This document shows positions 30,301-60,801 of a DNA stretch of 64,000 nucleotides, piece after piece. The position numbers and the translations under genes were made by a program. Numbering within the stretch: the first letter of the stretch is position 1; every line of letters begins with the position of its first letter. The notes under the pieces were generated by a model. It was not told the DNA's origin, did no database searches, and saw only the letters and a list, made by a program, of their open reading frames with translations. The DNA is from Lineus longissimus (Eukaryota; Nemertea; Pilidiophora; Heteronemertea; Lineidae): the NCBI RefSeq assembly GCF_910592395.1, contig NC_088311.1, positions 6,696,501-6,760,500 of the forward strand, read 5' to 3'.

Positions 30301-33300
30301 GAATATGCGTAATGGTGACGTTGTGATGTACCAGGTGTCCTACTTTAAGGGTAGTGATCCCATCACCACATTTGATCTCAACACGACCGAGGCGTACATG
30401 ATTATTGACAACCTAGAGAAGAACACAGACTATGTTTTCCAAGTGAAAGCTTTCACAAGTATCGGAGCTGGACCTTGGAGTGACAAGATGCATTTCCGGA
30501 CTTATGGAGAACGTAAGTTAAACTACCAATCTAGTTTGAGAATATGCCAGACGTGGTCTCGGCAGGGGTGATCTTTGAGTTACTATCTCTTCACAGGTTA
30601 ATGTGCAGGACATTCATTTTATGTGTTTCTTCCTGTACATATTTCCTTTACCATGGACATCCAAATGATATAGAAGTCATACACACATGAAATAGATGTC
30701 CATCACATAGGGAGGATCTTGTAGGGGAGCACTGTCTGGCATTGACATTCTGCTGTCTTAGTCCTATTCGTTTAACAGGCCCACACAGGCTGTAGTGGGC
30801 TTTTAACTGGTACTTTTCTCTAGAGAGAAAAAGTAAACATGCTTTTCTGGTTCAAAACAGGTAATCTATTTACCTTACTGAAGTGCAGAATTAGTCAAAC
30901 TATCCGATCGTTGTTGTAATATATATTTACTTACAGCAGAAAAAACTACGTCTGTTCAGTACAGACGTTACCCAAAAAAAAAATATAGAAAGCCTGGTGA
31001 GTTGGTGCTTATGATTTATGCAGGTCATGCAGCGAGCACTGTTTGCAAGTTTGGATCAGAAAATAAAGTTCAAACAAGACAATTTTCCAATCTTGTATGT
31101 CTTGACTCATCAAGTTTAAGCATTCACGAATTATCTGCTCATTTCCATTTGGTGAAGAATAGTCTTTATCATTTCTTGGTAATGTGCACATCAGAATTGT
31201 ATGAATTTTAACTCTTTAAGATTCAAGACGATTTTTCTCGCCTTTAATGCCTAAAAATTGGCCAGTTAGAGTCTGTCAATCATCACATGGTCTACTTATA
31301 CCCTGAATCCAGAACTTTAGATGTTCTTGCATAAAGATATTTTCTGATCTAACTCCAATCAAACTTCTTCTTGATTTTGTTTTCTTGCAAACTTCGCCAG
31401 CACATGATGCATTGAAATACATGAAGCATTAAAGCCAGGTTTTTCCGGAATGTTTCACTTTTCTACAATGCCATGTTTATGTCGGAAACAGGACTACCAT
31501 GCATATCTTACTGTGGTATTAAGGTCTATGAATGTGTTATCTTCATCGATGAACTGAGCATGTAGGTAAAATTGAGAAAACTTTCAAAATGTATCAATGA
31601 ATAATTTCGTAACAGACATATTGTACTGCAGGTTATCTTCAGCTTGATCAGTCAAAGTGAATAATGAGACCTGGTGTCAGGGCTCAACCAGTGCTAAACT
31701 AAGCCTAGTTCTTATGGATATCAACGTGATACGGTCATTCAGACTCGAATTTGATGTATTATTGCATCACCTTTCTTATGATTGTTGGTCTTAATAGGCA
31801 TGATGTTATGATTTCAGCTTGACATTTTTCATCTTGAATGTGTATTTACTGGTGATGGGTGATTTTATCAATTTTATTGCTTGTCCAGAGATTTGTTTTC
31901 ATCTTGAGGAGAATGAGATGATATTAGAGCAAATTGAATAATGACATTGTAATGCTGATACACACAAATTGTAGGTTTTCCCGGATAGCCAGTATTTTAC
32001 AGAATCTAATGAGAGAATTTTCATCTTTCAAAATAATTTTCGGCTTTACCATCAAAACTCTAAGGTTTAAAGAGACCGAAAATAATCATATCCCCCAAAA
32101 AGATTTTTTGTGTTTTTGCAGATTTTTGCCCTGCATGCTTTAATCATCATTACCTTTGATTGCAGTACCCCCAGCTCCGAAGAATGTACGGATAAAACGA
32201 CTTAACCCAACTGCTCTCGAAGTCGCCTGGGATTCGCCTGATTTCCCTGTTGCTGGCTACAGGATATTCTATAACAAGTATGCAGTGCCAAACATGGCGG
32301 AGTGGCACCACATGGATATCGGTCCGTTCACTGTCGTTGAGATCACTGGTTTAGAAGAACATAGTGTTTATGCCGTCCGGGTGCAGGCAAGGGCTGTTGA
32401 CAACCGCTACGGAAATCTATCGGATCCTGCGATCTCCAATGATATACCAAAAGGTATGTATGAATATACAAACTGCCGATCAATGCAAAGTCGTGCTTAG
32501 ACAAGTGACATGAGATTTAAAATGGTGACTTTCTGTACCTGAGTACCTATGCCAGGGAAGAGTTGGCTAAATACATGTGCAAATGTGTAACCTGATGTGG
32601 ACTATCAATTCCTCTAAAAATATCGCTGAGATCCTATGTGATGAGAGAACCTCAAACCTGGAGAAAAAGAATGATGATGAATATGTATATCCTTGTCTGT
32701 TGTCAAAGGAAGATTTAATTGACTATGGCAGCTCGGTAGAGACGTTTCATCTTATCAACAATTAAAGTGTTTTGTACCATAACCGTATTAATTCTTACAT
32801 TTCAGCCAAGCAAGATCAAGTTGTACCATAACCTTATTAATTCTTACATTTCAGCCAAGCAAGATCAAGTTGTACCATAACCTTATTAATTCTTACATTT
32901 CAGCCAAGCAAGATCAAGTTGTACCATAACCTTATTAATTCTTACATTTCAGCCAAGCAAGATCAAGTTGTACCATAACCTTATTAATTCTTACATTTCA
33001 GCCAAGCAAGATCAAGTTGCAAACTTCAGAGATCAAGACAAGAGAGCTACAACCATTGTCCTTGTCTGGAATAAGCCCAAGAGAATCACGGGAGTCCTCT
33101 TCTACAGGGTGAGTCAGAATCAAATTTCATTGTTGACTGAAAAGAAATGAAAGGCAAAGAGAGTTGGAATTTAAGCTCATATTGGTTCGAAGTGTGTTTC
33201 TGGCTGTTCGCTATTGTGACTCTCGTTACTCAGTTTGCCTCTTTCGAGATGAGCGCCCCTGGTGGAGATCTGTCGTGGGCAAACAAAATGGCCAACTTGA

Positions 33301-36300
33301 TATAGGGTCAGTGTTGAATTCTCATTTTCTGTCTTCAGTTGGACTACCGTGGTGAGCTGAGCTATCGTGACCGCTTCGGTAACATTCAGAAGCAGGTCGA
33401 CAACCTCAAGACGCGTGACATCGCCAAGGACCAGACACACTTCGTCGTGGAGAAGCTGCAGCCGTCGATGACTTATACGTTCAACATGACCACGTACTAC
33501 GGCAATGACGTCAAGAGTGACCCCTACACAATTCACGTACAGACTTTACCCGATGGTGAGTGGGTTCAATCCTGAGGAATCATTGTCCTCCCTAGAATGA
33601 ACATCACAAATTTAAGGAATCCTAATGCATTGCAAAAGGTGCTTAGCTGTGATTTTAGAAATTAACATTATGGAGAAAAGAAATGATGAAAAACGCTATG
33701 TGGTGAAGTCCACTTGCTCTTCCTGTTGTATTTTAACTGGGTCTTTTAACGATTCCGAAAATTGATGTTTTGATGTGATCTAAGGTTGCCCGTCTTCAAT
33801 GATTTTTTGCTTCGTCCTCTTAGCACCGCCATCTATTGAGCAACCTAAGGTGAAGAGTGTACAGCAAGATGCTGGGACCATCACGCTGGCATTGCCTAAA
33901 GCATCGGGCAAACATGGACCAATAGGCTACTATTTCATTGTGGTCGTTCCTGACAAATTGGCGGAAAATATGCACCCGGATCAGGTTCCAATAGATGAGG
34001 TAGGAAATGAATTGATAGTAAATTTGTGTAATTTATAGTTTGATCTCATTTCTAGCATACTCCTATGAGCTATTTTGAGTACAAGACATCGTCAATACAC
34101 AGCGTCCTATGCCACTGTCGCGATTATTATAAACTGAAACTTCTGCACACGTTTTATTTTTACCAATGGAGAATGAAGAATTTTAGAATTAAAGACCTTC
34201 TAAATATCATCATCTCTTGAACTCATCTAAACTGACTTCAATCCAATCTCTTTCAGTCGTTGCTGCGACGTTTTGCACGTGACACAGTGGATAAGATATA
34301 CATTGCTGCCCGATTCGAGAGGGACCTGCCGTCATTCTTTGTTCTTGGTGATGGTCAGACGTATGGTGGATACGAAAACAAGCCATTGCCACCAGATGGA
34401 CTGTACCGCGTGTTCGTTCGTGCGTACACGGATTCGGTACGTATGTTTTCATTCTGCAGCATCACGTCCGAAGCGCATATCTATACTTGATGTTATGAAT
34501 ACATTTCTCATTGGAAAAAGGAAGACCAACTCTGGCTTAGAGTCGTTTGTTGCAAACAATGTCTATACTATGTGTTCGATTTGTTTCAGAAGCTGTACAC
34601 CTCAAGTCATTTCTCGGATAGTCTCGGCCTCAGTAAAGCACCGTCGACTGATGGCGTCCAGAACCAGAAGCCCAAGTCCAACCTGATGATCATCATCCTC
34701 GCCCCCATCTGTATTGGCATAGTCGTCATAGTCCTCATCATACTGGTCACGCTCTTCTTCTGCAAAAACAAGTAAGTGTATTTCTCAATTGACGTAATTC
34801 AGCGAGGTCCTGACCAAAACTTGTGGCAATTGAAGAGCATGTCACAATGATTCGACAGAAGCAAAGCTAGAGCGGCACAAAATTCGACAGAAGCAAAGCT
34901 AGAGCGGCACAAAATTTCAATTGCTAACATTAAAGACAATTAGAAGCAAGTTTGTGGGGTTATTAGTTATTATTTTTGGCGCGATGACGTCTTGGTGCAT
35001 GAAAAATAGTCACATATGTGTCATAACCAACAGAGTGTTCCTCTGATGAATATCTGACTCACGGTCTGTTTTACAGGAAGTCTTTTAGCAAGGAAACCCT
35101 TTTGTGACACTTTCTTCAGTTGCATCAAGTTTATGGTGTATTTGTTACAAGTATACCATGAGCTTCCACCCTTCAATCTTCACTCATTTTTGTGGAAAAG
35201 ATGCAGAATACCCCACTAACTATGACATACTAACTATTCCACTTAAAGGGACTCTGTCTTATTCACTTACAGTACACATGAGATACAGTTTTGCAATGAC
35301 TATATCAACTAATAGGTTGTTCTTTGGCCTTGTATCGTTGGCCTTGTATCATGTCTTGCTAAGATGTAACCACCTCTTCTGATAATCCCTTATTCTCTGC
35401 GCTGATCACAGCTGGTTAGACGTGAGACTAGAGTCCCTTTAAATTTGTTGGTTCCCCACTGATAATATCATTTCATATTCTCAGACCTCCCATCTTGCTT
35501 TCCCACCTCTTAAGTTCTGTTCCTCTGCCAAATCGAGCGACTTCAGTCAGAGTGTTTTACTACCAATGAATCCAGTGTCCTCAGTCAGAGAATTTTTCTA
35601 CGACTTTAAAATTCATGTGGTATGTGAACATTTTATGACGAAAGTCATTGATTCACGCGTTTTTTCCTTATCTAGGAAGATATCGTGGCGAGCACTACCT
35701 ACAATAGGACGCCCGAACTACACTTTAACCTGTTGGTATGCATTAATCAGTGTCGGTCGTGTGAGTCGAAGTTGTAAGGAGATATGTGAAATATATTGTA
35801 ATCTGTTGCGGTATAGCTTGATGGAACATTACACTCAATCATTCGGCATTTCATGAGATGTGATCAGGGTAAAGTGGTAGAACTAAAGTAGAAGTGGTTT
35901 ATCAGGATGTTGTCCACTTTACTTGGAATGTTTTCCCTGTGTCACTTCTCTATGAAATATGGTTTTGTTCTCGTCAACTTATTCTGAAACAGAGTGTTTT
36001 CTGTATTCTCACTTTGTACTGTATGCTATCGTTCACTGACGACCTCAAATGATGCAAAAATTATTCCAGGTATACATTTAGAATGGTCACATTATTCAAT
36101 GGTTTTATTTATGTCTCAAGTCCACAAGCATCTGAGATTTCAGATCTATTTGGCTCTCCTTAGATACTCCATCACGTAGACTTTATATAGAGTTTACTGT
36201 ATCAGTTTTCTTTTCTTAAACAAAATATGTTGTACTTTGACTTCTTTGCACCAGTATAGTCGAGTAGCGCCAGCCTACAGCATGAGTAAAAGCACAACTA

Positions 36301-39300
36301 TTTGAGACCATTGCAAAGAAAATTGTCATATTTGGTGAAAAGGACAGGGCTTTACCTGTCATACAAGTTACAATATGGATATATTCATAAGGAATTGAGC
36401 TCCATGTCTGGGTCTTGTGAATGCAGGACATGCGATGTAAGAATTTGGATCAGGTTTATTCACCACCCTGGGTCTCACTTTTGCAATACCAGGACTTGTT
36501 TTGATGAGGTTGTCATGTCAGCAATTTCACCCCCAATGTAGTGAAATAACTGGTGACCGACAATATTTCTGTTGCGATGGTCATTTCAGGAGAAGGTGCA
36601 GTAGTACCATAATCCTTCTCGACATGACCTAACATCAAAACAAAATATATAAGGCGAGCTTATATATTTTGCTAACACCAGTATTCTAATACATTAACAC
36701 ATTAACACATTAGCAAATACCTTCATGCAGTTTCTCTGTTTACAGGCTAGGATTAGTGCACAATGAAATTCTGTTTTCATGATCCTTTTGACAAAAAGTC
36801 GAGAAGGTGGAAACTGATTGCCTCTTAATGGAAATGATAGTACATTGAGGGTGGCATTTACATTTACGAAGTGTTCCGTTATTTTCTAACCTGTGTCTAC
36901 CTGCACTTGTTTCTACAGGAGAAGAAGGAAAGTCCGCAGGAAGGAACCCGGCCGAGGCCAGGCTGAGCCGACCAAGTTGTTTGTTGACCCACCAGCACAT
37001 CCAACTGATCCAGTTGAGATGAGGCGTCTCAACCACCAGACTCCAGGTAAGAAAACGTATCATATTGGTCTGAATCAAGTTTTTTGTCATAGTTGGTGAC
37101 AAAGTTTCTTGTTTGTTGGACTCGGGATCAAGGGGTTGGGTGTTTGAATCCCTGCCTTAACTACTCTGTTGCCTCCATATCAGAGTTGATCAGAGGTTAG
37201 TGAGATGTTTAGAGATGCGCCTTAGTACCCTGAGAAGACTTTAGGACGATGAAATCCTTCGAGAAATCATCAAGATTTGTCTCATTTATTTACTTTTGAT
37301 ATCATTTTCGACCACAAGTCTCAACTTCAGTGCTATGTTTCTCTTTCAGCTATGATGAACCATCCGCCCATACCATTCTTGGAGTTACAGGAACACGTCG
37401 AACGCCTTAAAGCAAACGATAATTTGAAATTCTCGCAAGAGTATGAGTCGATTGAGCCAGGACAGCAGTTCACTTGGGATAACTCCAACTTGGAGGTCAA
37501 TAAACCCAAGAACCGCTACGCGAACGTCATCGCGTATGACCACTCACGTGTCCTACTTCAGCCAATAGAGGGCATCCCTGGTAGTGATTATATCAACGCC
37601 AACTACATGGACGGCTACAGGAAGCAGAATGCTTACATTGCTACTCAGGGACCGTTGCCAGAAACGTTTGGAGATTTCTGGCGGATGATCTGGGAGCAGC
37701 GCACTGCTACTGTTGTCATGATGACAAAACTGGAAGAGAGGACAAGGGTAGGTGAAGTCTTGGTCTTGGTCTTCTTGAAAATTTTGTTTGGAGTTTGTTA
37801 TGTTGTTGCTGAAGGTACCAGCATCTCAGCCCTTTGTAGTGCTTTTTCCTGAGAGAGTTAACCAGAATAGACTGATGCCTTCAACAAGTGTGTGGGGGCT
37901 GGGTGAAGTGTCTTGTGGAGGAAATCCATTTGATTATCTTATTCATTCTGTTTGCAGATCAAATGTGACCAGTACTGGCCAAACCGAGGAACCGATACGT
38001 TCGGCTTCATCCATGTGACCATCATGGATGTAATGGAGCTTGCCACCTATACCATTAGAACTTTCCAAATCCAAAGGGTAAGGGTCAACATAGGTTTTGT
38101 ACGATTTCTTGAATTGTCAACTCTGTCATACGAATGTCCCACTCCAGCAATAAGGCTTTTTGTCCGAAGGCAATTACATGATGTGTCTAGAATATAATCA
38201 ACACTTGATATCTTTGCAGCATGGTTTCCCCGAGAAACGTGAAGTGCGCCAGTTCCAGTTCACCGCCTGGCCAGATCACGGTGTGCCCGACCACCCAACG
38301 CCATTGCTAATGTTCATGAGGCGGGTGAAAACCGTCAATCCTCCTGACGCAGGACCCTTGATAACACACTGCAGGTAAGGAATGATTATCCCAGACACAT
38401 TAAACCTTTATGAGGCTTTTTAAGGATACAACTAGAATCTATCATGTACTTCAGATCTGCTCACTTATGAGGCCAACTTTGTTACCGAAAATGGATTGAC
38501 TGTCTAGTGTACATGTCAAAAATTCCGAATGCTGAAGAAGAAGAATCTCTCCCGACCCAAAGGGTGACATCAGAAAGGGGTCATCCAGAGCTTTTTGCCC
38601 TAAGACCATGAAAATGTATGTAAATGCTGATTTTTTTATATTCTCAGTTGAACCTCTTTCTTGTTACAGCGCTGAACCTCTTTCTTGTTTTTATATTCTC
38701 AGTTGAACCTCTTTCTTGTTACAGTGCTGGAGTAGGACGAACTGGTGCTTTTATCGTGATCGATTCCATGTTGGAACGAATCAAACACGAGAAGACTGTT
38801 GACATCTACGGTCACGTGACCTGTCTGCGCGCTCAACGTAACTACATGGTCCAGACAGAGGACCAATACATTTTCATTCACGACGCACTCATCGAGGCGA
38901 TACAGGGTGGCAACACCGAAGTGCCCGCACGGAATCTATTTGCACATATACAGAAACTCACACAACCAGATCAAGGGGAAACGGTCACAGGAATGGAAGT
39001 TGAATTTAAGGTAAGTATGTGACAGGTTTTCCCTTTTCTTCTCCAGTTCATTTTTAGTTCTACAATGACGTTATCTATGATCTTACTAAACTATTCGCAG
39101 CATATGTTTCTGAGTTTGATAATTGCTGAGTATACTCTAAATATACTGTTGATGCCAAAACACAATCTCTTATTCGGTGTTTCAGAGGGAGGAGGATTCA
39201 AGAAAGGGATGAACAGAGTCAGATTTTTAGCTTCAAGATAATTTTGACATGCTCTCTATGGCATAGCATATCTCAATACTTCCACTGCTTGGTACGTTAA

Positions 39301-42300
39301 GGCTAACTATTTAGATAACATGGTTGTCACTTCTTCCCATTTCAGAAATTAGCCAGTATTAAAGCCAACCCATCAAGATTCGTGAGTGCCAGTCTTGCAG
39401 TCAATAAATTCAAAAATAGACTGGTCAATATATTACCATGTAAGTACATGTGTCATACTTTCTCACCCCTTATATGTCGGCAATTCAGCAGAAGGACCCA
39501 CTAGCCCAGCGTGTCTACCTCCTTAAACTGATACAATAAAGCACCACTTCAATGAGTATTGGCGCTTTGTCCAAAATGTAATTGCTTCTTCCTCTGCATT
39601 TGATATAAAGTTGATTGCTATTTCGTTGCATCTTCAGCCCTGTGATTGCCGCAGATTTGGCTATCTTCTCATTAGGTGGTCCTTGTTACTTCATAGCTTG
39701 TCAGCCAGTGCCTCTCCACCTAAACAGTTAGCCTCTCACTTGGCCTGGAAACTTGATATTCCTACAAGATATGGGATGCGGTTAGGTCAGCATGTGATGG
39801 TGAATTTCAAGGTGGTACAGATAAATGTTTTAGACTATCAATTGTTATCAGATTTGTCCTATGTAAATAGATTTTATCACATTTTTCCTCCTTTTCAGAT
39901 GAATCCACAAGAGTATGTCTTCAACCTATACGGGGCGTCGATGGTTCTGATTATATCAATGCTAGTTTTATTGATGTAAGTTTATCAAGTTGACAAAACT
40001 GACATTAATTTGCTTGCTTCCAAGTTGTTTGGTCAAGGATATGTCACTGTATGACCTCTTAGTATGTTCTTCCAACAACTGAAATCTAAAAAAAAGCTGC
40101 CCTTGGAAGCTAACTAATGACATGGAGATGTTTAAAATGAAACCCAATTTCCTCCTTCAGGGCTACCGATACAGAACTGCCTATATTGCCACCCAAGGGC
40201 CTCTTGCTGAAACCACTGAGGACTTCTGGCGAATGCTGTGGGAACACAATTCGACGATAGTAGTCATGTTGACAAAACTGCGAGAAATGGGTCGCGAGAA
40301 GTGCCATCAGTACTGGCCAAGTGAGAGATCTGCACGGTATCAGTACTTCGTGGTGGACCCGATGGCTGAATATAATATGCCGCAATACATCCTGAGAGAG
40401 TTCAAGGTCACAGATGCAAGGGTAAGTTAGACGCGTAGTTTTTCGTGCTTTCAGAGTGGCTCCTGGCTGGTGCCACTCGTGGATGCTGCATGCTCTCTAT
40501 GGAGCTATGAGTTCATGGTGATGTCTTAGGGTGCTTTTGTACAACAGTGCAAAGCAGAGAGGTAAATGTATAGTCTGCCTGGTGTATCATGCTAGGAGCT
40601 GCTCAAGCGGTGAATCACTTTCAACCACACCAAAGGAATGGATTATGGATTCGGCAGCAAGTTCTTGGTCAAGTCTGACTCATTTCTCGCAACAATACGT
40701 ACTTAGGTTTTCCTGAACACAAACCATTATTGACATGCTCATGGCTCGTCTATAACAATTTTCAGGATGGCCAGTCCCGGACAGTTCGACAGTTCCAGTT
40801 CACTGATTGGCCAGAACAAGGAGTGCCAAAATCGGGCGAGGGCTTCATCGACTTCATTGGTCAAGTGCACAAAACGAAGGAACAGTTCGGTCAGGACGGA
40901 CCAATTACAGTGCATTGCAGGTAATGACTTTAAACTGAACTTGTGCTTGGCGGACCACCCAACTACTTATCACATGTGCATATGAGAAGAGTTCAAGAAG
41001 CCTTTGAGAGCACTATAGCATTATTTTGAGAACTAAATGTAGTCATGGCTGATTTTGTTTGGCTCTAAGGAAATGTACCATCATGGGAGTTTCCTTTGTA
41101 TTTCAGTGCTGGTGTGGGTAGGACGGGCGTCTTCATCTCTCTAAGTATAGTCTTGGAGAGAATGCGGTACGAGGGAGTCGTGGATATGTTCCAAACTGTC
41201 AAAATGCTGAGAACACAGAGACCAGCCATGGTTCAAACAGAGGTACGTATTGTGGGCTCAGAGGCTGATTAGCAAATTACAATAAAATTACAATAAAAAG
41301 CTGATGAATACAACAAGTTGACTGTATACAATTTGCAATCAGTGTCAGTGGGGCATGTGAGAAAACATCTTGGCTAAAGATTTCTGATGTGCAGTCCCAT
41401 TGACTATGAAAGCTAAAATGTTCCTGGGGGGCGGGGGACTTTGGTCAGTTCAGAGTTGGAGATAAAAGAACTATCATGACTATAGTGAAAGAGGGGAAAG
41501 ATTATTCATGATGACAGGAGACAAATAAAGGTTGGGTTGTTCTTCCTGATACTAAATAACCACTTTGTTGCCCAGGGGAGAATATTCCGATGATAACGAC
41601 TCCTATGGTCTTCACAGGGTGTTTGGGTGGCATGGAGCAGATGAATGAGTTTGAAGATAAAGATTCCAGGGGTTATTTAGTATATTCCTTTGAGGACTTT
41701 GCATGACCGCCGCAGTTGGCAGAAGTTGGGACAACATTTTCAGATTTTGTATCCGGTTATGCATGCACATGAATATGTATAGTCGGTTACTGCTTGGTTA
41801 CCTTGGTTACTTATCAATGTGCATGCATAACCAATGCGGAAATTTTGATCTGACCTATGCATGCATACGTGGTGTTGATTCAGTATCCTCAAAGTATTTC
41901 ATGACGAGTATAGTGTGTGACAGACAGCCATTAGCATTGTGTCATATTGACATGAGTGATTTGTTTCAACGTTGTCTTCACATTTTGGTGATTTTTTGTC
42001 TTCATTTGAACTTTACAGACCAAAGTTGGTTTTCATTCTGAGAAACACGCAAAGTTAGCAAAGTCACAGCTTATAGAAACATCTGCTTGTCTTGGACAAA
42101 CAAGAAGCTGTTATCTCAGCTATATGTTTAAATGTCCTGGGATAGAATGTCCGGGGAGAAAGGATTCTGTTATGCCCCTTACTCAAAGTTCTTAATCTAC
42201 GGTACTGCTCTTGGGCTGGGGACCAGCTGCTTGATTTTTTCCGTTGAAGAAATTTTGCTAAAGTGCTGTAGACTCGAGCAGTAACTTAACCCTTATAAAT

Positions 42301-43974
42301 TCCAAATTCGGTCTGTGAATGTTTTCCGTGCTAACGTCTTTATTTCACCTTTCAGTTTTATCATCCGATTTTCCAGTGTTGTAGTTTTCCGCAGCCAATG
42401 TTGTACATAATCACTAGCTTCTGTTTCCTTTAGGTATTTTCCTCTTCATGTGCGCACCATGGTGTTATCCTACGTTGTACTGCGGTAAAAAACCCTTCCC
42501 CATTTTACCATTGTAAATACCCACCCCATCGTACATCTGAACTTCACCTTTTCTCAGGCAGTTTTGAAGAATTTGTTGAATAAGCTGGGAACTTTGATAA
42601 AATTTTAGGGGAGGGGGAGGTGTCATATTTGACAGTAAAATTGGAAAATTGTGAATAAGTTGAGGAAAGGTGGGAAATTTGGGAAATGTCAAGGAAAAGT
42701 GAGAAAAAAGTTGGAAATTTTGCTCTATTTAAAGATTATTTTCATTATTAATTACTAACCAACACTTCAGTCTTGTTCAAAATGTTCTCTATTATTTTTC
42801 GTTATTTCAAATTTTCTTGGTGAAATTCACAATAAAAGATTTTGAAATTCTACTCAAGTTTTCATTTCAAGACATATTTCGCTTTAAATTCTACATCTGC
42901 TCAGTAACTAATACATGTACAGTATGGAAAATATTGTGAAAATTTTGAAGCAATTGTTGAAAACTTCAAATCGTGTTGTGTCCTTGTTCCTGCTTTAGTA
43001 ATGTCCATGCTCCATCCAGCTTCCCTTGGTCATCTTATTTTGACACACGTCATAGGCATCGCCAGCCAAAGGGTCAGGTCCAACCCTACCAATGCTTCGG
43101 TGAAAGAAATCCACACCAAATGTCAATGCTTAATATCCCACCCAAGTCATCTCATAAACAATGGGTGATATGAATAAAGGCTAGCAAATGCTTTTACTTC
43201 AATTTTGTACAGAAAGGCCAAGTGTAAATGTACATAGAGTTTTAGATAAAAGCATTTACTACTCTTTATTCATATCACCCATTGTCACGTAGCCCACGAA
43301 AATGCACTTTTGTGGAAAATTTGAATGTGGGGCTGAAGACCGTTCAGGGCTGATATTGATTGCAGTAGTCAGAACATCTGATTTTCAATAGCCCATCCTT
43401 ATGGTTTGGGTAAATGAGAGGATAGAATAATGGATTGTCTTTGAAGCACAAATTAAAATATGAAAAAATGGGAGAATTTCAGAAAAAGTTTGGTCCTGGT
43501 GACGCCTATGCACAATGTCATTTCTTTGTTGATTTCAGCGCACTCTGCACTCAGTATACAATGGATGTCTGACACACCTCGGCAGCTGTCGCCATGGTGA
43601 TCTGTACCTAACTGCCATGCTCTTTGCTTCCCTTTCAGGCCGAGTATGGATTTTGTTACGTGTCAACGCTAGAATACCTCGGTTCGTTTGACCACTACTA
43701 CACATCGTGAGGCGACGTTTTAGGTCACGTGCCGTGACGAGACTTTTAGGTCACGTCTGTTTGAGTGACGTGCTGTCACGCATTCGGAGGTGACGTTATG
43801 GTGTGACCAGCATGGGGTGATTTTGCGGTGTCACATAGAGGTGGCTCATTGAGTCGCATGTTTGGGCGACGTTAGGGTGTCACTTTAGCCTCTCTTTCAT
43901 TACAGGACCAGTACCAGTTCTGTTACCGGGCTGCATTGGAATATCTCGGATCTTTCGATCACTATGCAAATTGA
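112..43974 (+). CDS. LAR: LAR-type receptor protein tyrosine phosphatase, multi-exon, 5' end outside the window
   Basis: This is a type I membrane receptor with a cell-adhesion-like ectodomain and two cytoplasmic phosphatase domains. Family members act at synapses, in axon guidance and at cell-matrix contacts, dephosphorylating tyrosines. I join exons 112-399, 5154-5254, 6165-6366, 20236-20523, 23424-23735, 29379-29690, 29928-30512, 32166-32453, 33002-33108, 33339-33555, 33824-33999, 34257-34436, 34590-34771, 36919-37046, 37350-37747, 37958-38077, 38220-38374, 38725-39010, 39346-39439, 39899-39975, 40161-40421, 40766-40920, 41107-41242 and 43906-43974. Every junction is GT-AG and the phases agree, giving about 1,704 residues plus a stop. 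Domain order is nine FN3, membrane-proximal segment, transmembrane helix, PTP D1, PTP D2. The Ig domains expected upstream are not in the window. The nine FN3 domains match Drosophila Lar better than the usual eight of the longest human forms. The alternative last exon 43639-43710 gives a second C-terminus. Confidence 0.95.
400..5153 (+). other. LAR intron, 4.75 kb
   Basis: No coding exon is recognised in this intron. Its ORFs are short and unlike known proteins. Near the 3' end (about 5028-5075) a 17-bp AT-rich unit (aattataattataatca) repeats about three times. A pyrimidine-rich stretch lies at about 720-830. Confidence 0.7.
5028..5075. repeat. AT-rich 17-bp tandem repeat
   Basis: The unit aattataattataatca occurs in about three tandem copies. 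It lies about 80 bp upstream of the acceptor of the first FN3-2 exon. Confidence 0.8.
5154..5254 (+). CDS. LAR: LAR exon: FN3 domain 2, first half
   Basis: The exon lies between acceptor gatctttcag and donor atcagg|gtaagt. It begins in phase 1 ([20 protein letters not shown]) and ends in phase 0 after [12 protein letters not shown]. The PNGVI turn is typical of LAR FN3-2. The phase-0 intron splits the domain in two. Confidence 0.93.
5255..6164 (+). other. LAR intron filled mostly by a minisatellite
   Basis: A 910-bp phase-0 intron inside FN3 domain 2. About 750 bp of it is the 49-50-bp tandem repeat listed separately. No other feature is seen. Confidence 0.85.
5371..6120. repeat. Intronic minisatellite, 49-50-bp unit, about 15 copies
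   Basis: The unit contains cttgttgttgatgaaattg, then tcaggtcgtggggcagttc, then taagataaagg. Unit starts fall at about 5424, 5474, 5524, 5573, 5623, 5672 and so on, so the spacing is 49 or 50 bp. Copies differ by a G-run of 4 or 5 and by single substitutions (cagtt/caatt, gatg/gata). The last two or three copies are more degenerate. Confidence 0.95.
6165..6366 (+). CDS. LAR: LAR exon: FN3 domain 2, second half
   Basis: The acceptor ttattgtttcag precedes [20 protein letters not shown]. The domain ends ...[19 protein letters not shown] and VKTQQG, with the donor in phase 1. The Y-x-V-F-Y strand and the G-V-G-D-G-P-L-S loop are standard FN3 features. Confidence 0.94.
10942..11740. repeat. Intronic minisatellite, 31-bp unit, about 25 copies
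   Basis: The unit is roughly gaatttgtttcctcgttgg followed by tcctacagagtt. Consecutive copies at 11066 and 11097 show the 31-bp period. Variants alternate between cagagttgaa and cagactcgaa. Each unit carries a polypyrimidine-like stretch followed by tcctacag, which resembles a 3' splice site. The array becomes degenerate after about 11590. Confidence 0.95.
13231..13283. repeat. 53-bp near-perfect palindrome
   Basis: The left arm ATTCACAGATCACAGGA pairs perfectly with the right arm TCCTGTGATCTGTGAAT. Inside it, TATTTG pairs with CAAATA around a 3-nt loop, leaving only two unpaired positions per arm. A direct repeat of aactagtattcac sits just upstream (about 13190 and 13225). Confidence 0.9.
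14192..14499. mobile_element. Short non-autonomous DNA transposon (MITE), Tc1/mariner-like
   Basis: The element starts CAGGGTGGCCCAATG and ends with the reverse complement CAGGATGGCCCAAAAAT, so the terminal inverted repeats match at 12 of the first 13 positions. It is flanked on both sides by TA, the target duplication of Tc1/mariner elements. It is about 308 bp with no transposase ORF. The superfamily is inferred only from the TA flanks. Confidence 0.7.
18400..18710. repeat. Degenerate 40-44-bp tandem repeat
   Basis: About seven diverged copies carry ATTGGTCCAATTGCC and GTGACCAAAATCATG-like blocks. The GGTC core recurs near 18462, 18504, 18543, 18584, 18627 and 18671. The array is much more decayed than the other minisatellites in the window. 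Confidence 0.75.
20236..20523 (+). CDS. LAR: LAR exon: FN3 domain 3
   Basis: The exon lies between acceptor tttccttccag and donor tatt|gtaagg, phase 1 on both sides. The protein runs [20 protein letters not shown], then [19 protein letters not shown], and ends in [20 protein letters not shown]. This is the S-x-x-x-YEL-x-Y and RVAAKS pattern of LAR FN3-3. Confidence 0.94.
20524..23423 (+). other. LAR intron, 2.9 kb, with a CAGTCA/CAGTG motif cluster
   Basis: No coding exon is recognised here. Positions 21720-22790 are unusually rich in CAGTCA and CAGTG words, described as a separate feature. Confidence 0.7.
21720..22790. repeat. Cluster of short CAGTCA / GCAGTG motifs
   Basis: Words such as cagtcaaaatcagtggt, cagtcataggcagtg, cagtcatatgcagtggg and cagtcaaaagcagtg recur more than twenty times with irregular spacing. 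It is not a clean tandem repeat; it may be a very old minisatellite or a cluster of short protein- or RNA-binding words. Confidence 0.6.
23424..23735 (+). CDS. LAR: LAR exon: FN3 domain 4
   Basis: The acceptor cgtgcccttag precedes an exon that is phase 1 on both sides. The protein starts [20 protein letters not shown], then [19 protein letters not shown], and ends [25 protein letters not shown] and the QNG(V/I)I turn are signatures of LAR FN3-4. Confidence 0.95.
23736..29378 (+). other. LAR intron, 5.6 kb
   Basis: No coding exon is recognised here. A lone transposon-end-like sequence (cagggtgtcccaaaaag) lies at about 23911, with no partner found. A 14-nt G run is at about 24119-24132, degenerate catagcgacca repeats lie at about 26880-27000, and a short dispersed repeat at 26349-26392 also occurs near 47773. 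The ORFs at 27113-27457 and 28602-28928 resemble nothing known to me. Confidence 0.65.
26349..26392 (+). repeat. Dispersed repeat fragment (copy 1)
   Basis: The stretch accaaattgggatcaac...agtgtccccaatagagggg aligns with 47773-47820 (aaccaacttgggaccaa...agtgtcgttaatagagagg) with a handful of differences. Two unlinked copies imply a dispersed element of unknown class. Confidence 0.55.
29379..29690 (+). CDS. LAR: LAR exon: FN3 domain 5
   Basis: The acceptor caatatttcag precedes an exon with donor gggagcag|gtgagg; both sides are phase 1. The protein begins [20 protein letters not shown], then [19 protein letters not shown], and ends [30 protein letters not shown] and the Y-T-x-K-G-D-G loop match LAR FN3-5, which is absent from some isoforms in vertebrates. 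Confidence 0.95.
29700..29870. repeat. 48-bp imperfect repeat just inside the intron after FN3-5
   Basis: Three to four copies of a unit with gtttagagacactgtagac and aatgtcacaacc begin about ten bases after the 5' splice site. The spacing is 48, 48 and about 32 bp. The 236-bp intron is almost entirely this repeat. Confidence 0.75.
29928..30512 (+). CDS. LAR: LAR exon: FN3 domains 6 and 7 on one exon
   Basis: A 585-nt exon, phase 1 on both sides, encodes two FN3 domains without an intron between them. FN3-6 runs from [20 protein letters not shown] to [18 protein letters not shown]3-7 runs from [19 protein letters not shown], with the motif [17 protein letters not shown], to [17 protein letters not shown]. 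The fused exon probably reflects loss of an ancestral intron. Confidence 0.95.
30513..32165 (+). other. LAR intron with a candidate cassette exon
   Basis: The intron between FN3-7 and FN3-8 is 1.65 kb. Apart from the candidate 57-nt cassette exon at 30940-30996, nothing is recognised. Confidence 0.7.
30940..30996 (+). CDS. LAR: Candidate LAR cassette exon encoding a basic linker
   Basis: A 57-nt open segment lies between ttacttacagcag and the strong donor cctg|gtgagt. It is phase 1 on both sides, matching the flanking FN3-7 and FN3-8 exons, so inclusion keeps the frame. It would insert [19 protein letters not shown], a strongly basic linker, between the two domains. The acceptor is a tandem cagcag (NAGNAG); the upstream AG would add one codon. 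Alternative exons are known in LAR-family ectodomains, but I do not recognise this one. The call rests on splice signals, symmetry and openness only. Confidence 0.5.
32166..32453 (+). CDS. LAR: LAR exon: FN3 domain 8
   Basis: The acceptor tttgattgcag precedes [20 protein letters not shown] (the first codon is shared), then [19 protein letters not shown], and the exon ends in [14 protein letters not shown] with a phase-1 donor (aaag|gtatgt). This domain has no clear counterpart in the longest human LAR and fits the ninth-FN3 arrangement of Drosophila Lar. Confidence 0.92.
32454..33001 (+). other. LAR intron ending in a five-fold duplicated 3' splice site
   Basis: The final 230 bp or so of this 548-bp intron is the 49-bp tandem repeat described separately. 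The rest has no recognised feature. Confidence 0.85.
32772..33016 (+). repeat. LAR: Five tandem copies of a 3' splice site plus exon start (49-bp unit)
   Basis: The unit is ttgtaccataaccttatta, then attcttacatttcag (pyrimidine tract plus AG), then ccaagcaagatcaag, which is the first 15 nt of the FN3-9 exon. Acceptor AGs end at 32805, 32854, 32903, 32952 and 33001, exactly 49 bp apart, and the copies are almost identical (one G/T difference in copy 1). Only the last acceptor leads into an open frame; from any earlier one the frame reaches TAA within the next copy (accataa). The unit therefore straddles the intron-exon junction. Confidence 0.97.
33002..33108 (+). CDS. LAR: LAR exon: FN3 domain 9, first half
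   Basis: The exon starts after the last of five tandem acceptors and ends in phase 0 at the donor acagg|gtgag. The protein is [20 protein letters not shown], then [16 protein letters not shown]. It corresponds to human LAR FN3-8 (AKNFRV...SVLLSWEVP). Confidence 0.92.
33339..33555 (+). CDS. LAR: LAR exon: FN3 domain 9, second half
   Basis: The acceptor ttctgtcttcag precedes [20 protein letters not shown]; the exon ends [20 protein letters not shown] and a phase-1 donor. The L-x-P-x-x-x-Y-x-F pattern is the standard FN3 strand F. Confidence 0.92.
33824..33999 (+). CDS. LAR: LAR exon: membrane-proximal ectodomain, part 1
   Basis: The acceptor cgtcctcttag precedes [20 protein letters not shown], then [19 protein letters not shown]. 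The YYFIVVVP segment aligns with the WFYIVVVP of human LAR, in the membrane-proximal region that follows the last FN3. The donor is phase 0 (gatgag|gtagga). Confidence 0.92.
34257..34436 (+). CDS. LAR: LAR exon: membrane-proximal ectodomain, part 2
   Basis: The protein begins [20 protein letters not shown] and includes [20 protein letters not shown], matching human FTLGDKKNYRGFYNRPLSP. Vertebrate LAR is cleaved by a furin-type protease at a run of arginines just before this point; here only RRFAR is present, a minimal R-x-x-R at best. Both introns are phase 0. Confidence 0.93.
34590..34771 (+). CDS. LAR: LAR exon: stalk and transmembrane helix
   Basis: The exon runs from [16 protein letters not shown] through a polar linker into a hydrophobic stretch of about 25 residues ([20 protein letters not shown] and onward) that stops at CKNK. 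This is the single membrane-spanning helix with a basic stop-transfer sequence. The donor aacaa|gtaagt is in phase 2. Confidence 0.94.
34849..34914. repeat. Two-copy tandem duplication, about 32 bp
   Basis: The unit attcgacagaagcaaagc followed by tagagcggcacaaa is present twice in tandem with almost no divergence. It does not include a splice junction. Confidence 0.9.
35077..35103 (+). CDS. LAR: Candidate 27-nt LAR juxtamembrane microexon
   Basis: After the acceptor ggtctgttttacag there is a 27-nt segment that is phase 2 on both sides, matching the flanking exons. It would insert KSFSKETLL after CKNK in the cytoplasmic juxtamembrane region, where alternative small exons are known in LAR-family genes. 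The donor (tttt|gtgaca) is weak, so this is tentative. If that donor is not used, the frame reaches TGA at once. Confidence 0.3.
36919..37046 (+). CDS. LAR: LAR exon: cytoplasmic juxtamembrane region
   Basis: The protein is (K)[21 protein letters not shown] and then [26 protein letters not shown]-x-QTPG is nearly identical to vertebrate LAR-family proteins, which anchors the identification. The exon enters in phase 2 and leaves in phase 1. Confidence 0.95.
37350..37747 (+). CDS. LAR: LAR exon: PTP domain D1, N-terminal part
   Basis: The protein reads [96 protein letters not shown] and [15 protein letters not shown]. The KNRY tyrosine that stacks on phosphotyrosine is present, as are DYINA and ATQGP. 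The donor is phase 0 (aagg|gtaggt). Confidence 0.97.
37958..38077 (+). CDS. LAR: LAR exon: PTP D1, KCDQYWP segment
   Basis: The exon encodes [20 protein letters not shown] through [10 protein letters not shown], with phase-0 borders. It aligns directly with vertebrate KCDQYWPARGTETCG. Confidence 0.96.
38220..38374 (+). CDS. LAR: LAR exon: PTP D1, WPD loop and catalytic cysteine
   Basis: It encodes [17 protein letters not shown], carrying the general-acid aspartate (GAT at 38274-38276), and ends in PLITHC with the nucleophilic cysteine (TGC at 38370-38372). The donor follows two bases of the serine codon (phase 2), so the active-site signature is split by the intron. Confidence 0.97.
38375..38724 (+). 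other. LAR intron ending in a duplicated 3' splice site
   Basis: A 350-bp intron within the D1 active-site signature. Its last 85 bases contain a two-copy, 55-bp-period duplication of the acceptor region, listed separately. Confidence 0.85.
38641..38730 (+). repeat. LAR: Two tandem copies of the D1 active-site exon acceptor
   Basis: The sequence ttctcagttgaacctctttc followed by ttgttacag and (c/t)gctg occurs at 38641 and again at 38696, a 55-bp period. The AGs end at 38669 and 38724. The second leads to the open exon; the first would add a short tail and reach TGA 12 codons later. The unit includes the first bases of the exon, so the duplication straddles the intron-exon boundary. Confidence 0.9.
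38725..39010 (+). CDS. LAR: LAR exon: PTP D1, C-terminal part
   Basis: It completes [12 protein letters not shown], including the catalytic arginine of C-x5-R, and continues [54 protein letters not shown]. The Q-loop QTEDQY is intact, so D1 should be catalytically active. Phase-0 donor. Confidence 0.97.
39011..39345 (+). other. LAR intron between D1 and D2
   Basis: Nothing beyond normal splice signals is seen in this 335-bp intron. Confidence 0.8.
39346..39439 (+). CDS. LAR: LAR exon: PTP D2, start
   Basis: It encodes [20 protein letters not shown] and [11 protein letters not shown]. The position equivalent to the KNRY tyrosine is leucine (KNRL), as in vertebrate LAR D2, where this change is known to contribute to inactivity. 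The donor is in phase 1. Confidence 0.94.
39440..39898 (+). other. LAR intron within D2
   Basis: No feature is recognised in this 459-bp intron. It is open in one frame for a while, but that reading does not fit the D2 frame. Confidence 0.75.
39899..39975 (+). CDS. LAR: LAR exon: PTP D2, SDYINASF segment
   Basis: With the preceding T it encodes [20 protein letters not shown] and NASFID. The borders are phase 1 and phase 0. It matches vertebrate [15 protein letters not shown]. Confidence 0.94.
40161..40421 (+). CDS. LAR: LAR exon: PTP D2, central part
   Basis: It encodes [80 protein letters not shown] and FKVTDAR, almost identical to vertebrate LAR D2. Both borders are phase 0. Confidence 0.97.
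40422..40765 (+). other. LAR intron within D2
   Basis: No feature is recognised in this 344-bp intron. Confidence 0.8.
40766..40920 (+). CDS. LAR: LAR exon: PTP D2, WPE loop and active-site cysteine
   Basis: It encodes [20 protein letters not shown] through [10 protein letters not shown]. The general-acid position is glutamate (WPE, GAA at 40814-40816) rather than aspartate. Together with KNRL this marks D2 as the regulatory, essentially inactive domain typical of LAR. The cysteine (40916-40918) is kept. Phase-2 donor. Confidence 0.97.
41107..41242 (+). CDS. LAR: LAR exon: PTP D2, [10 protein letters not shown] and Q-loop start
   Basis: It completes [20 protein letters not shown] and [20 protein letters not shown], ending PAMVQTE with a phase-0 donor (gag|gtacgt). 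The codons after this point come from one of two alternative last exons. Confidence 0.97.
41243..43638 (+). other. LAR intron before the alternative last exons
   Basis: A 2.4-kb intron. It holds an imperfect inverted repeat (43158-43285) a few hundred bases upstream of the alternative exons. No other exon is recognised. Confidence 0.7.
43158..43285. repeat. Inverted repeat with about 42-bp arms
   Basis: The left arm (43158-43199) starts ACAATGGGTGATATGAATAA. The right arm (43244-43285) is its reverse complement with a few mismatches, ending ttattcatatcacccattgt. About 44 nt separate them. It could be a foldback or MITE remnant, and as RNA it would form a long stem in this intron. Confidence 0.85.
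43639..43710 (+). CDS. LAR: LAR alternative last coding exon A
   Basis: The strong acceptor tgcttccctttcag precedes an open 72-nt exon in phase 0 ending in [23 protein letters not shown], then YTS. It is clearly homologous to exon B (43906-43974), sharing [13 protein letters not shown] and the same phase. Using A changes the conserved QTE|DQY to QTE|AEY, losing the second glutamine of the PTP Q-loop. This is a tandem last-exon duplication with two mutually exclusive ends. Whether A is used cannot be seen from DNA alone. Confidence 0.8.
   Translation, partial: AEYGFCYVSTLEYLGSFDHYYTS
43906..43974 (+). CDS. LAR: LAR last coding exon B (conserved form)
   Basis: The acceptor tctctttcattacag precedes [20 protein letters not shown] and AN, then TGA. 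This matches the vertebrate LAR C-terminus ([20 protein letters not shown]) and keeps the Q-loop QTEDQY. It is therefore the ancestral end of the protein. Because A lies 5' of B, B is reached only when A is skipped. Confidence 0.96.
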
Positions 43975-53490: not shown

Positions 53491-53499
53491 TGGAGACGT

Positions 53500-55383: not shown

Positions 55384-56585
55384 AAGACATTCGCATTCAG
55401 AGGTGGCAGAAGATGTTTTTTGGTTGGTTAAGATGATCAGTTGGGACAAAATACGTGGAGACATTCGCATTCAGAGGCGACAGATGATGACCAGAGACGT
55501 TCTGAGATGTTGGGAAGTGACTAAGGACAGGAGAAGACATTCGCATTGAGAGGTGGCAGAAGATGTTTTTTGGTTGGTTAAAATGATCAGTTGGGACAAA
55601 ATACGTGGAGACATTCGCATTCAGAGGCGACAGATGATGACCAGAGACATTCTGAGATGTTGGGAGGTGACTAAGGACAGGAGAAGACATTCGCATTGAG
55701 AGGTGGCAGAAGATGTTTTTTGGTTGGTTAAAATAATCAGTTGGGACAAAATACGTGGAGACATTCGCATTCAGAGGCGACAGATGATGACCAGAGACAT
55801 TCTGAGATGTTGGGAGGTGACTAAGGACAGGAGAAGACATTCGCATTGAGAGGTGGCAGAAGATGTTTTTTGGTTGGTTAAAATGATCAGTTGGGACAAA
55901 ATACGTGGAGACATTCGCATTCAGAGGCGACAGATGATGACCAGAGACATTCTGAGATGTTGGGAGGTGACTAAGGACAGGAGAAGACATTCGCATTGAG
56001 AGGTGGCAGAAGATGTTTTTTGGTTGGTTAAAATAATCAGTTGGGACAAAATACGTGGAGACATTCGCATTCAGAGGCGACAGATGATGACCAGAGACAT
56101 TCTGAGATGTTGGGAGGTGACTAAGGACAGGAGAAGACATTCGCATTGAGAGGTGGCAGAAGATGTTTTTTGGTTGGTTAAAATAATCAGTTGGGACAAA
56201 ATACGTGGAGACATTCGCATTCAGAGGCGACAGATGATGACTAGAGACATTCTGAGATGTTGGGAGGTGACTAAGGACAGGAGAAGACATTCGCATTGAG
56301 AGGTGGCAGAAGATGTTTTTTGGTTGGTTAAAATAATCAGTTGGGACAAAATACGTGGAGACATTCGCATTCAGAGGCGACAGATGATGACTAGAGACAT
56401 TCTGAGATGTTGGGAGGTGACTAAGGACAGGAGAAGACATTCGCATTGAGAGGTGCCAGAAGATGTTTTTTGGTTGGTTAAAATAATCAGTTGGGACAAA
56501 ATACGTGGAGACATTCGCATTCAGAGGCGACAGATGATGACTAGAGACATTCTGAGATGTTGGGAGATGACTAAGGACAGGAGCG
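55384..56585. repeat. 150-bp satellite, eight units
   Basis: The block tctgagatgttgggaggtga starts at 55501, 55651, 55801, 55951, 56101, 56251, 56401 and 56551, exactly 150 bp apart, with very few differences. Each unit is itself two diverged halves of about 75 bp, both starting gacattcgcatt(g/c)agagg. As 150 is a multiple of three, the minus strand is open for 483 codons in 50-residue repeats; I regard that as a by-product. Confidence 0.97.
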
Positions 56586-57923: not shown

Positions 57924-60801
57924 CTGAAAAATGACAACTTGATAAGATGAGGCAAAAGACAAAATGATGACGAACTAGGTCGCAACACTGCAGACAGCCA
58001 GTGGGACAGTTTTGATAAAAACCCGGGGGGAATTTCTCAATATTATCACTGTCAATATTACTGAGGACCACAGATCTCTATTCATCCAAAATAGGTCTTA
58101 TGAGGACAAAGTCAAAACCATGCAGCAGGCCAAAAAAGGATACACAGTCTTAATACATGGTCTTATGAGGACAAATTCACAACCATGCAGTGAACCTCTA
58201 AAGGGGAAGTTCTTACCAGTGTTAACATTGTAGACATCAGTCGTATCCAGGATGTATCTGTAGCTCCCAAAACCTCCCATCAGATACATGTTCTCCCCAT
58301 CCGTGCATACGCAATGGTGGCGTCTTGGCCCAGGCAGCTGATTTAAAGTAAATCTTATGGAAATTAGCCAATGCTAAAGGACTCTCTATGGCTGATTGAC
58401 GGGAAGGATGAGCTCTTTCTATCTACTACCAGTATTAGAATTGTGAATTATTGACGGCTATCCCCAATGGCCAACAGAAGACTACCATTTCTCCTGATAA
58501 AACAGCTTGATCAACATGAAATATCAGGGTTAGTATCAAAGTAACTGTCTTTGTGAAAAGATAAACTTTATTTCCAGGACTCCGATGGCCAGTGAAAACA
58601 CAAGCTTTTGGCAGTTGAGATCAATCTCTAGCATTCCCATTGGTGGCTATTTTTACCATTTTGTTTCTTTTAGGAGCGGTGGTGCAAAAGTCCAAACATA
58701 CCTCTGTTGGGACATCCCAGACATCTTCAAACGGATTGTATCTCCAGACATCACGGCACCATTGGTTTCTCCCTCGGTTCTTCTCACCACCAGTTATGTA
58801 TAGATCTTTGCCTGGAGGAAAAGAGTGTTAAACATTCACTTTTTTTTCCTGCCATGTCTTTTTTGTGGGCTGTGAAAGTAACAGACCCGCCTGCCAGTCT
58901 TTCAATAATAGCAAGATATACAAGTAAGCTGCTACAGCCCTGTCTCCCCTTTTGGAACGGAATACTGGTCAGACTTTCCAGACTTACCGACAATACCCCA
59001 TGTGACAGGCTACTCTTCCCTCTTGGGACTGAATACTGGTCACTGAGGATTTACAGACTTGACTACAACAAAGCGCTAGTACCCCATGCTGCAGGCCAGT
59101 CTCCCCTCTAGGAACAGAATATTGGTCAGGCATTTCAGACTTACCTACAACAAAGCATTTGTACCCCATGCTGCAGGCCAGTCTCCCCTCTAGGAACAGA
59201 GTATTGGTCAGGCATTTTAGACTTACCTACAACAAAGCAATAGTACCCCATACTGCAGGCCAGTCTCCCCTCTAGGAACAGATATTGGTCAGGCATTTCA
59301 GACTTACCTACAACAAAGCAATAGTACCCCATACTGCAGGCCAGTCTCCCCTCTAGGAACAGATATTGGTCAGGCATTTTAGACTTACCTACAACAAAGC
59401 AATAGTACCCCATACTGCAGGCCAGTCTCCCCTCTAGGAACAGATATTGGTCAGGCATTTCAGACTTACCTACAACAAAGCACTAGTACCCCATGCTGCA
59501 GGCCAGTCTCCCCTCTAACAGAACATTGGTCAGGCGTTTTAGACTTACCTACAACACAACATTTGTACCCCATGCTACAGGCGGGTCTCCCCTCTTGGAA
59601 TGGAATATTGGTCAGGGTTTTCAGATTTTGCGTCTCAGGGTCCAAGTAACTGATCTTTGTGTTGGGAAGTTTACTATCATGGAACAAGAGGTCACCTCCA
59701 ACAACTAGGAGAACTCTTGGGAAGGATGGTCTGCGGAACTGAAAGAAATGAACTACATTATTACAAGGGACTGCGAACTGGTTCAGAACTGTCTATAAAT
59801 TATCTAATGCCGACAATTTTGTGAAACTTAGAATCCTTCAGACCTCCCTTTGAACATCGAAAACAACACTAATCACATCATAATTCTGGGACTTCCCTTA
59901 TTTCCTTCAGACAAAATGATGCAAACATTCTAAGTAAATGAGTAAGGAACGAGCTTACATCATCTGGTAATTCACTTGGATAATCAACAAATGCTACATT
60001 AGTCTTACAGTCAATGCAGTCTGTTTGCTCAAAGGTCAACTGCATCGTCACACTTACACAATAGGAAGACATTTCATCCAAACTCTTAAGCCTCTCTCTT
60101 ATTTCCTTCAAACTAAGTTTCGACAGCTCCTCTGCATTCTGAACAACATCGTTGATGCAACTGACATCATCACCATGGCAGAAAATTGCAAGGAGAGATG
60201 TGAGATCTTCCGCGGAGCATCTAGAATTTGGACCAGTAGCCCAAGCCCATTTCAAAATGGCATACACAGCATCTGCTTTGAGTTCTAGATTCAACGCGCC
60301 ACTGCCAAGGTACAATGATAGTTCAGCAAATGTTTGCATAGAATACTCCTCACTTTCGACCACTTCAAGGAGGTTCCACATAGCAATTCTCTTTGCTTTG
60401 TTGTGAACTAGTTGTAAGGATTGCTGTTCCGCAAATTTCATAACACTAAGGCAATTCGATGGATCGGTCATCTCCAGAAGATATTCACAACATTTTTCAC
60501 AAAGATGTTTTAATTGCAGCATTGTTGCTGCAGACGTTACTGACAATATATTTTGTTTGTTAAGACCTGGCTGCTTTTCTTCGATGAAGTCTCTGATCAC
60601 TTCCATATCTGACACAGATATGTAATTTAGTTCAACTTGCCGCGTAATACATTCTTTCATACATGACGTGTAGAACATGGCATCGAAGTAGTCACTCTTG
60701 TCTGCAAGCTGTTTTCCACTGAAGACGAATCTTTCTCCGTCAACAGTGATAGTGACCTCATCATTGTTTGTTGTCTCGGTACCTTCCCGACATTCATCCA
60801 T
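57466..60801 (-). CDS. BTB-BACK-kelch (KLHL-type) protein, complete, five coding exons
   Basis: Proteins of this type are usually substrate adaptors of Cullin-3 ubiquitin ligases: BTB binds Cullin-3 and the kelch propeller binds the substrate. Minus-strand coding exons are 60801-59959, 59738-59549, 58811-58702, 58337-58217 and 57923-57466. All junctions are GT-AG and in phase, giving about 573 residues, a normal KLHL length. The BTB domain (about residues 12-110) contains VDGERFVFSGKQLADKSDYF; BACK follows to about residue 235; kelch motifs begin near residue 285 (VLLVVGGDL, LYITGGEKN, MYLMGGFGSY, FYIVGGSDMD). I cannot name the orthologue; I considered KLHL42-like proteins but did not settle on one. 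The start ATG lies 11 nt after a consensus acceptor (ttccttttcag), so a 5' UTR exon exists upstream. Confidence 0.9.
58217..58337 (-). CDS. Kelch gene exon 4
   Basis: The exon encodes LPGPRRHHCVCTDGENMYLM, then GGFGSYRYILDTTDVYNVNT, another kelch blade. It is phase 0 at the start and phase 1 at the end (acactg|gtaaga). Confidence 0.92.
58338..58701 (-). other. Kelch gene intron 3
   Basis: Nothing beyond the splice sites is recognised in this 364-bp intron. Confidence 0.75.
58702..58811 (-). CDS. Kelch gene exon 3
   Basis: The acceptor cttttcctccag precedes (G)KDLYITGGEKNRGRNQW and RDVWRYNPFEDVWDVPTE, a textbook kelch blade with the paired glycines and a spaced W/Y. It enters in phase 1 and leaves in phase 0 (cagag|gtatgt). 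Confidence 0.92.
58915..59625 (-). repeat. Tandem array of a 79-82-bp unit carrying an exon end and 5' splice site
   Basis: On the minus strand each unit reads gtaagtctgaaatgcctga, ccaatatctgttcctagagg, ggagactggcctgcagtatg, gggtactattgctttgttg, tag, and then the next gtaagt. The donor positions (acttacc on the plus strand) are at 59543, 59464, 59383, 59302, 59221, 59139 and 58982; a mutated one (acttgac) lies near 59057. The unit is homologous to the last 60 or so bases of kelch exon 2 plus its intron start, so the exon-intron junction has been amplified about eight times. Each copy also holds an acceptor-like ctgttcctag. Reading through from exon 2 past the first donor soon gives a stop. 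Confidence 0.95.
59549..59738 (-). CDS. Kelch gene exon 2: first kelch blade
   Basis: The acceptor atttctttcag precedes FRRPSFPRVLLVVGGDLLFH, then TKISYLDPETQNLKTLTNIP and FQEGRPACSMGYKCCVV, and a donor gttgtag|gtaagt in phase 1. The 3' end of this exon and its donor are the source of the repeat array in the following intron. Confidence 0.9.

Follow-up and report, generated by a model that had tools for sequence, protein, structure and literature searches.

Three tandem-repeat arrays in two genes of Lineus longissimus were found to have units that straddle a splice junction, and three more arrays with boundary-spanning units were found elsewhere in the genome. We think it quite likely that the arrays are 'mirage' minisatellites, tandem duplications that span a junction and that arise because local duplication is frequent and some of the duplicated stretches include a splice junction. 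The DNA analysed, referred to as the window, was a stretch of 64,000 nucleotides from contig NC_088311.1. A sequence-only reading had described the three arrays in it (two at acceptors and one at a donor, on opposite strands) and had held that the copy bordering the exon is the functional one. All three arrays were confirmed in the sequence, and the exon-bordering copy was supported as the functional one by an NCBI protein at both arrays of the first gene, and by the reading frame and a kelch motif for the third array. The same reading had expected such arrays elsewhere in the genome, as was indeed found (loci L031, L037, and L042). The features are listed in Table 1.

Table 1. Host genes, exons, and junction-straddling arrays in the window, followed by the arrays found at other loci
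Feature	Coordinates	Strand	Description
LAR-type receptor tyrosine phosphatase gene	5154..43974	+	23 exons modelled, 1608 codons open
Array 1, acceptor	32772-33019	+	49 bp, 5.1 copies, 99% match (Tandem Repeats Finder)
Real LAR exon at array 1	33002..33108	+	Open reading frame; acceptor is the final copy of array 1
Array 2, acceptor	38633..38729	+	Two copies 55 bp apart
Real LAR exon at array 2, with phosphatase active-site motif	38725..39010	+	From homologues, reading frame, and NCBI protein
BTB-BACK-kelch gene, part hosting array 3	58702..60822	-	First coding exon extends to ~60822
Array 3, donor	58994..59625	-	~81 bp, 7.7 copies, 90% (Tandem Repeats Finder)
Real BTB-kelch exon	59549..59738	-	Donor supplied by the first copy of array 3
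L031, donor mirage			102-bp unit, about 3.4 copies
L037, acceptor mirage			Nine 32-bp units, each TTTCAG then CTC
L042, older donor mirage			About 66-69 bp, four copies, reduced identity, last one partial

Arrays 1 and 2 are hosted by the LAR gene, which continues further upstream of 5154. Its exons were placed by means of homologous proteins, and the open frame given in Table 1 was obtained by joining them via the exon-bordering acceptors. A protein search at a strict E-value returned a sole match, the NCBI entry 'tyrosine-protein phosphatase Lar-like isoform X3 [Lineus longissimus]' (one sequence from a cluster of 8), with 97% identity and 100% coverage to the LAR gene. The NCBI protein joins exons at the exon-bordering acceptor in both arrays (2/2), and the small extra exons present in it suggest that the annotation has transcript support. 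It may be noted that the gene has alternative last exons (43638-43706 and 43906-43974), either of which completes the phosphatase domain. Isoform X3 ends like the former, while the LAR homologues are closer to the latter (about 79-91%) than to the former (50-57%).

Array 3 is hosted by an unrelated gene on the opposite strand. The encoded protein was recognized by its Pfam scores as a BTB-BACK-kelch protein (BTB, 40.3 bits; BACK, 32.5 bits; Kelch_1, 72.9 bits), and more exons of this gene were read by eye down to ~57466.

The earlier reading had also taken the arrays to support a cephalochordate origin for the window, which proved to be wrong. In a quick tree, the LAR gene grouped with lophotrochozoan sequences (SH-aLRT 99) and away from those of vertebrates, and the NCBI protein is that of Lineus longissimus. 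No match named as Branchiostoma was present among the matches listed (at least 120 each) in two protein searches. The host species is the nemertean Lineus longissimus. A search for mitochondrial COX1 in the same genome gave no match. A Ro60 (TROVE) gene was also seen at about 62472-64000 on the plus strand. It matched an 83% identical protein on a JGI metagenome contig, presumably from another nemertean, and support in the Ro60 tree was insufficient for a taxonomic placement of the window.

Array 1 consists of five 49-bp units plus the 3 bp TTG, a word common to both breakpoints. Each unit is made up of 34 nt of the intron end, with its terminal AG, and 15 nt of the exon. The last unit contains the real acceptor (the first base of the exon being 33002), and the four upstream units place spare acceptors before 32806, 32855, 32904, and 32953. 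A single base, in the first unit, is the total difference of the four upstream units from the last. The NCBI protein (P0241) spans the junction into the real exon at the exon-bordering acceptor, and each of the four upstream acceptors would lead to a stop if used (4/4). When scored with a matrix trained without them, all five acceptors were equal at 8.1 bits, below all 15 training acceptors (9.0-15.5 bits). Since the five are equal in predicted strength, local signals cannot account for the site choice. The choice would then have to come from the body of the real exon or from its donor.

Array 2 had earlier been described as two 55-bp units; the sequence instead shows an imperfect duplication in which a shorter repeat, TGAACCTCTTTCTTGTT (read by eye), is nested. 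Its copies (38633-38674 and 38688-38729) are 98% alike. The acceptors precede 38670 and 38725, the second being the real one, and use of the first would cause a frameshift and a stop. Array 2 was absent from the Tandem Repeats Finder list at score 50 and was detected by two other programs. It looks like the outcome of two successive template switches.

The unit of array 3 comprises the 3' end of the exon, the donor GTAG/GTAAGT, and the first bases of the intron. The real donor lies after 59549. Intact spare GTAG/GTAAGT donors occur after 59470, 59389, 59308, 59227, and 59145, with one further, weaker donor after 58988, and the outer copies are more diverged than the inner ones. The real donor was assigned from the reading frame and the kelch motif only: the joint between 59549-59738 and 58702-58811 falls at residue 345 and is crossed by a Kelch_2 match (residues 337-382), and a PF24681 match (residues 291-448) likewise runs over it. 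All five intact downstream donors would produce stops if used (5/5). Splice signals are present in the spare copies of every array of the window, with five acceptors in array 1, both acceptors in array 2, and six intact donors, counting the real one, in array 3.

That such arrays are assembly errors or collapsed haplotypes is extremely improbable. The accessible text of PMC8593623 describes an assembly from PacBio HiFi reads at 79-fold coverage, from DNA sheared to 12-20 kb, with one haplotype deposited. Arrays 1-3 span 97-632 bp, far below the HiFi read length, and similar arrays occur in separate loci. Nothing was found in favour of assembly error, although the exact copy numbers may still be wrong.

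Splice junctions were surveyed in 19 random 10-kb stretches, in four stretches beside genes or the window, and in 16 (of 20 selected) stretches around exon-dense Pfam PF00102 (phosphatase) hits, picked without knowledge of arrays. Exons were defined by homology and by an exon finder, which had the window as its training sequence and recovers most LAR exons there; in the random stretches it found 19 exons, versus 3 in the reversed sequence. In-silico predictions account for 48 of the 193 scored junctions, and 3/19 are expected to be false in the random part. For the phosphatase loci, 59/67 homology-supported exons were modelled, some of the models being doubtful, and 8/67 were left without a model; the junctions and the expected number of straddling arrays are consequently undercounted there.

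A 40-mer centred on each of 194 junctions was compared by alignment with the 400 bp flanking it on each side. One junction, at the end of stretch L019 with <40 bp of context, was dropped, and 193 were scored. A forward local copy scoring at least 22 was obtained for 6/193 junctions, and none on the reverse strand (0/193); at a score of at least 14, eight of the 193 junctions were positive in the forward direction and none in the reverse. The mirage junctions came from the window (3/46) and from the phosphatase loci (3/100), whereas the 40-mer test gave 0/37 in the random stretches and 0/10 in the neighbouring ones. The rate outside the window was 3/147 junctions, and it may be noted that 100/193 junctions belong to one gene family, the phosphatases. 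Weak forward scores of 14.5 at L035 and 14.5 at L023 were left out of the count.

The three mirages outside the window differ in structure. The L031 units each contain a nested duplicate of the end of the exon with the donor region, and three GTAAGT donors are present at this locus, the real one included. The units of L037 have an exonic portion of three bases only, and the word AGCTC stands at both ends. Of its nine acceptors, the spare ones scored 11.1-13.1 versus 12.4 for the real one.

Having found L042, we looked at further loci chosen because of it (L044-L051, excluded from all rates), and three of these eight (L044, L048, and L049) carried an array of the L042 type. In L044, a neighbour of L042, the array is nearly the same, and the first 300 intron bases are 97% identical. 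L048 and L049, which are 96% identical mutually, have a longer and more decayed array at the same intron. In L041, the exon is 88-90% identical to the others, and a 19-bp relict of a second copy remains after the donor; its forward score in the survey was 13.0. In L045-L047, the phosphatase exon is a different one and lacks the L042 array, and in L050 and L051 no match to the target exon was seen. The simplest reading of this series is one old array, kept through gene duplications and mostly lost in L041. Clusters of receptor phosphatase genes (PF00102) were seen on genome contig C4 at 16.88-17.09 Mb and 24.1-25.0 Mb, some of the copies being recent.

The genome is rich in minisatellites. Ordinary ones in the window include 50027-52309 (81 bp x28), 55352-56583 (150 bp x8), and 10935-11697 (31 bp x25). 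Two others, in two phosphatase genes, adjoin donors without containing them (29699-29866 in the window and 1563-2058 in L033), and a 67-bp satellite in L032 (1210-2316) fills almost an entire intron and stops about 26 bp short of the acceptor; none of these was counted. The L032 unit looked vaguely tRNA-like in reverse by eye, and ARAGORN reported no tRNA gene. Two candidates were set aside. One, an array in a LAR intron (5371-6118, 49 bp x15), was considered as a decayed mirage; it ends ~45 bp before the acceptor and is not claimed as one. The kinase hits C1:7149128 and 7149350 (L030) turned out to be two diverged whole exons. These exons (within C1:7148900-7149800) are about 220 bp apart and MAP2K-like by eye, an arrangement as in mutually exclusive exons.

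Relative to noncoding DNA, array-unit length amounted to 1.2% in the window and 2.27% in the phosphatase loci; the random and neighbouring stretches, with 42 arrays in 217 kb, were intermediate at 1.57%. These figures include the mirages and exclude L017 (an 18-bp satellite). Such densities predict about 3 to 3.6 mirages per 193 junctions, and 6 were observed. The number of mirages is what random tandem duplication could produce in a genome rich in minisatellites.

The finding of three arrays within 27 kb had earlier been taken to suggest a genome-wide mechanism, perhaps replication slippage or a recombination-prone structure at splice junctions. This part of the reading was examined by placing the unit of each array randomly inside its own locus. 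For this test, the kelch gene entered with a single array and a short stretch of sequence, a unit of 69 bp was assigned manually to L042 (126 in the detector output), and the 10935 array was given a unit of 62 bp in place of 31 bp. In the window, 3/8 arrays straddled a junction against 0.63 expected (P = 0.016), and the pooled figure was 6/18 against 2.64 (P = 0.029). In the phosphatase loci, sampled blind to arrays, it was 3/10 against 2.01 (P = 0.32). As the window had been picked for its arrays, the phosphatase-locus figure is the less biased one. The additional loci uphold a wider occurrence in the genome, but the array-blind sample does not uphold a mechanism specific to junctions.

If junctions were hot spots for the birth of arrays, for example through co-transcriptional structures or through sequence composition at the sites, an excess like that of the window and of the pooled set would be seen, and arrays might also begin close to a site, as they do 9 bp past the donor at 29690 and about 12 bp past a donor in L033. 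We regard such hot spots as unlikely. The excess in the window comes from a region selected because of its arrays, the expectation for the phosphatase loci is if anything too low on account of unmodelled exons, and none of the 47 scored junctions in the random and neighbouring stretches was a mirage. A moderate enrichment at junctions is possible from the pooled and window P values.

We return to junction-spanning duplication as the likely origin of the arrays. The birth of an array would probably involve slippage, or a switch of template, at two short words that match and are separated by a few dozen bases. The words at the breakpoints, TTG in array 1 and AGCTC in L037, fit slippage or microhomology-driven template switching; they were read by eye and in a few arrays only. 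The exon-bordering copy would still join an unchanged exon, which would leave the protein intact and turn the spare copies into intronic sequence. A duplication lying wholly inside an exon would change the protein, whereas one that spans the junction would spare it if the outer copy is spliced. Afterwards the array would grow, mutate, nest, and shrink as any minisatellite does. The spare sites are presumably near-neutral, with RNA splicing avoiding them.

The spare sites could instead be selected decoys that tune splicing, or the mRNA level, by way of stop-bearing transcripts destined for decay. A stop would result at every intact spare site of the window (four in array 1, one in array 2, and five in array 3), and some spare sites match or exceed the real one in strength (L037, and L048 with L049, where they reach 12.3 versus 10.3 for the real site). 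We give this reading a slim chance, since young copies are equal by descent and selection is unnecessary to explain their strength. Moreover, in the old arrays of L042 and L044 few copies retain a good donor, and L041 retains just 19 bp of its array.

It is very unlikely that the spare exon parts serve as alternative exon ends that add protein variety. The evidence for it comes from L048 and L049, in which 63 nt separate the first donor from the nearest spare one; the added stretch is in frame and open, and the spare site has a predicted strength of 9.0 versus 10.3 for the first donor. This 63-nt copy is a possible nascent exon extension. Within the window, all intact spare sites break the frame or give a stop, and the observed LAR isoform (one sequence, from a cluster of 8) uses the exon-bordering copies only.

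The likeness to the mirage minisatellites of amphioxus, proposed in the sequence-only reading, was well founded: the accessible text of PMC3087553 and PMC3902484 describes arrays of the same kind in Adh3, the globins BflGb6 and BflGb9, PGBD5, and troponin C. According to those portions, the amphioxus units span the boundary at donors or acceptors, many spare AG/GT copies are present, units measure 10-160 bp, and outer copies are more diverged than inner ones, as here in array 3. The phylum differs (cephalochordate versus nemertean). Length instability and somatic variation were reported for amphioxus Adh3, in the text available, while one haplotype was examined here. For Lineus, unlike for the amphioxus mirages, the present data include a paralogue series and a per-junction rate.

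Two other systems bear comparison, each as described in the accessible part of its report. In a potato RdRp gene, a tandem duplication across the intron-exon boundary, like those seen here, gave a new intron (PMC4974935), whereas the spare copies in the Lineus LAR gene are part of an old intron; no new intron was found in the duplicated stretches of arrays 1 and 2, where the annotated protein joins neighbouring exons directly. In human segmental duplications, internal tandem repeats occur at exon-intron boundaries (PMC2812944), with minisatellite-sized units found through paralogues as here. The human repeats are reported to have led to novel introns and alternative transcripts, whereas the annotated Lineus protein is unchanged at the two checkable sites. 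Searches for Nemertea in an open-access library listed no report of mirages in a nemertean, most subscription journals being outside that scope. What is new here is the nemertean case, the rate estimate (6/193; 3/147 outside the window), and the paralogue series.

In the accessible text of PMC3087553 and PMC3902484, mirages are treated as a cephalochordate feature. Their presence in a ribbon worm, at a rate explicable by random duplication, suggests that any genome with many local tandem duplications will carry them. They also offer natural experiments on splice-site choice, array 1 having five acceptors in near-identical surroundings and L037 nine of like strength. Where local signals cannot guide the spliceosome, as in these two arrays, the context of the real exon would have to do so. 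A wider idea, which we hold to be rather doubtful, is that mirages sit at a few per cent of the junctions of any animal genome rich in minisatellites, are born preferentially there, and supply ready splice sites for exon extensions and new introns. If this is true, the two phosphatase paralogues whose 63-nt copy is in frame and has a good donor may illustrate such recruitment.
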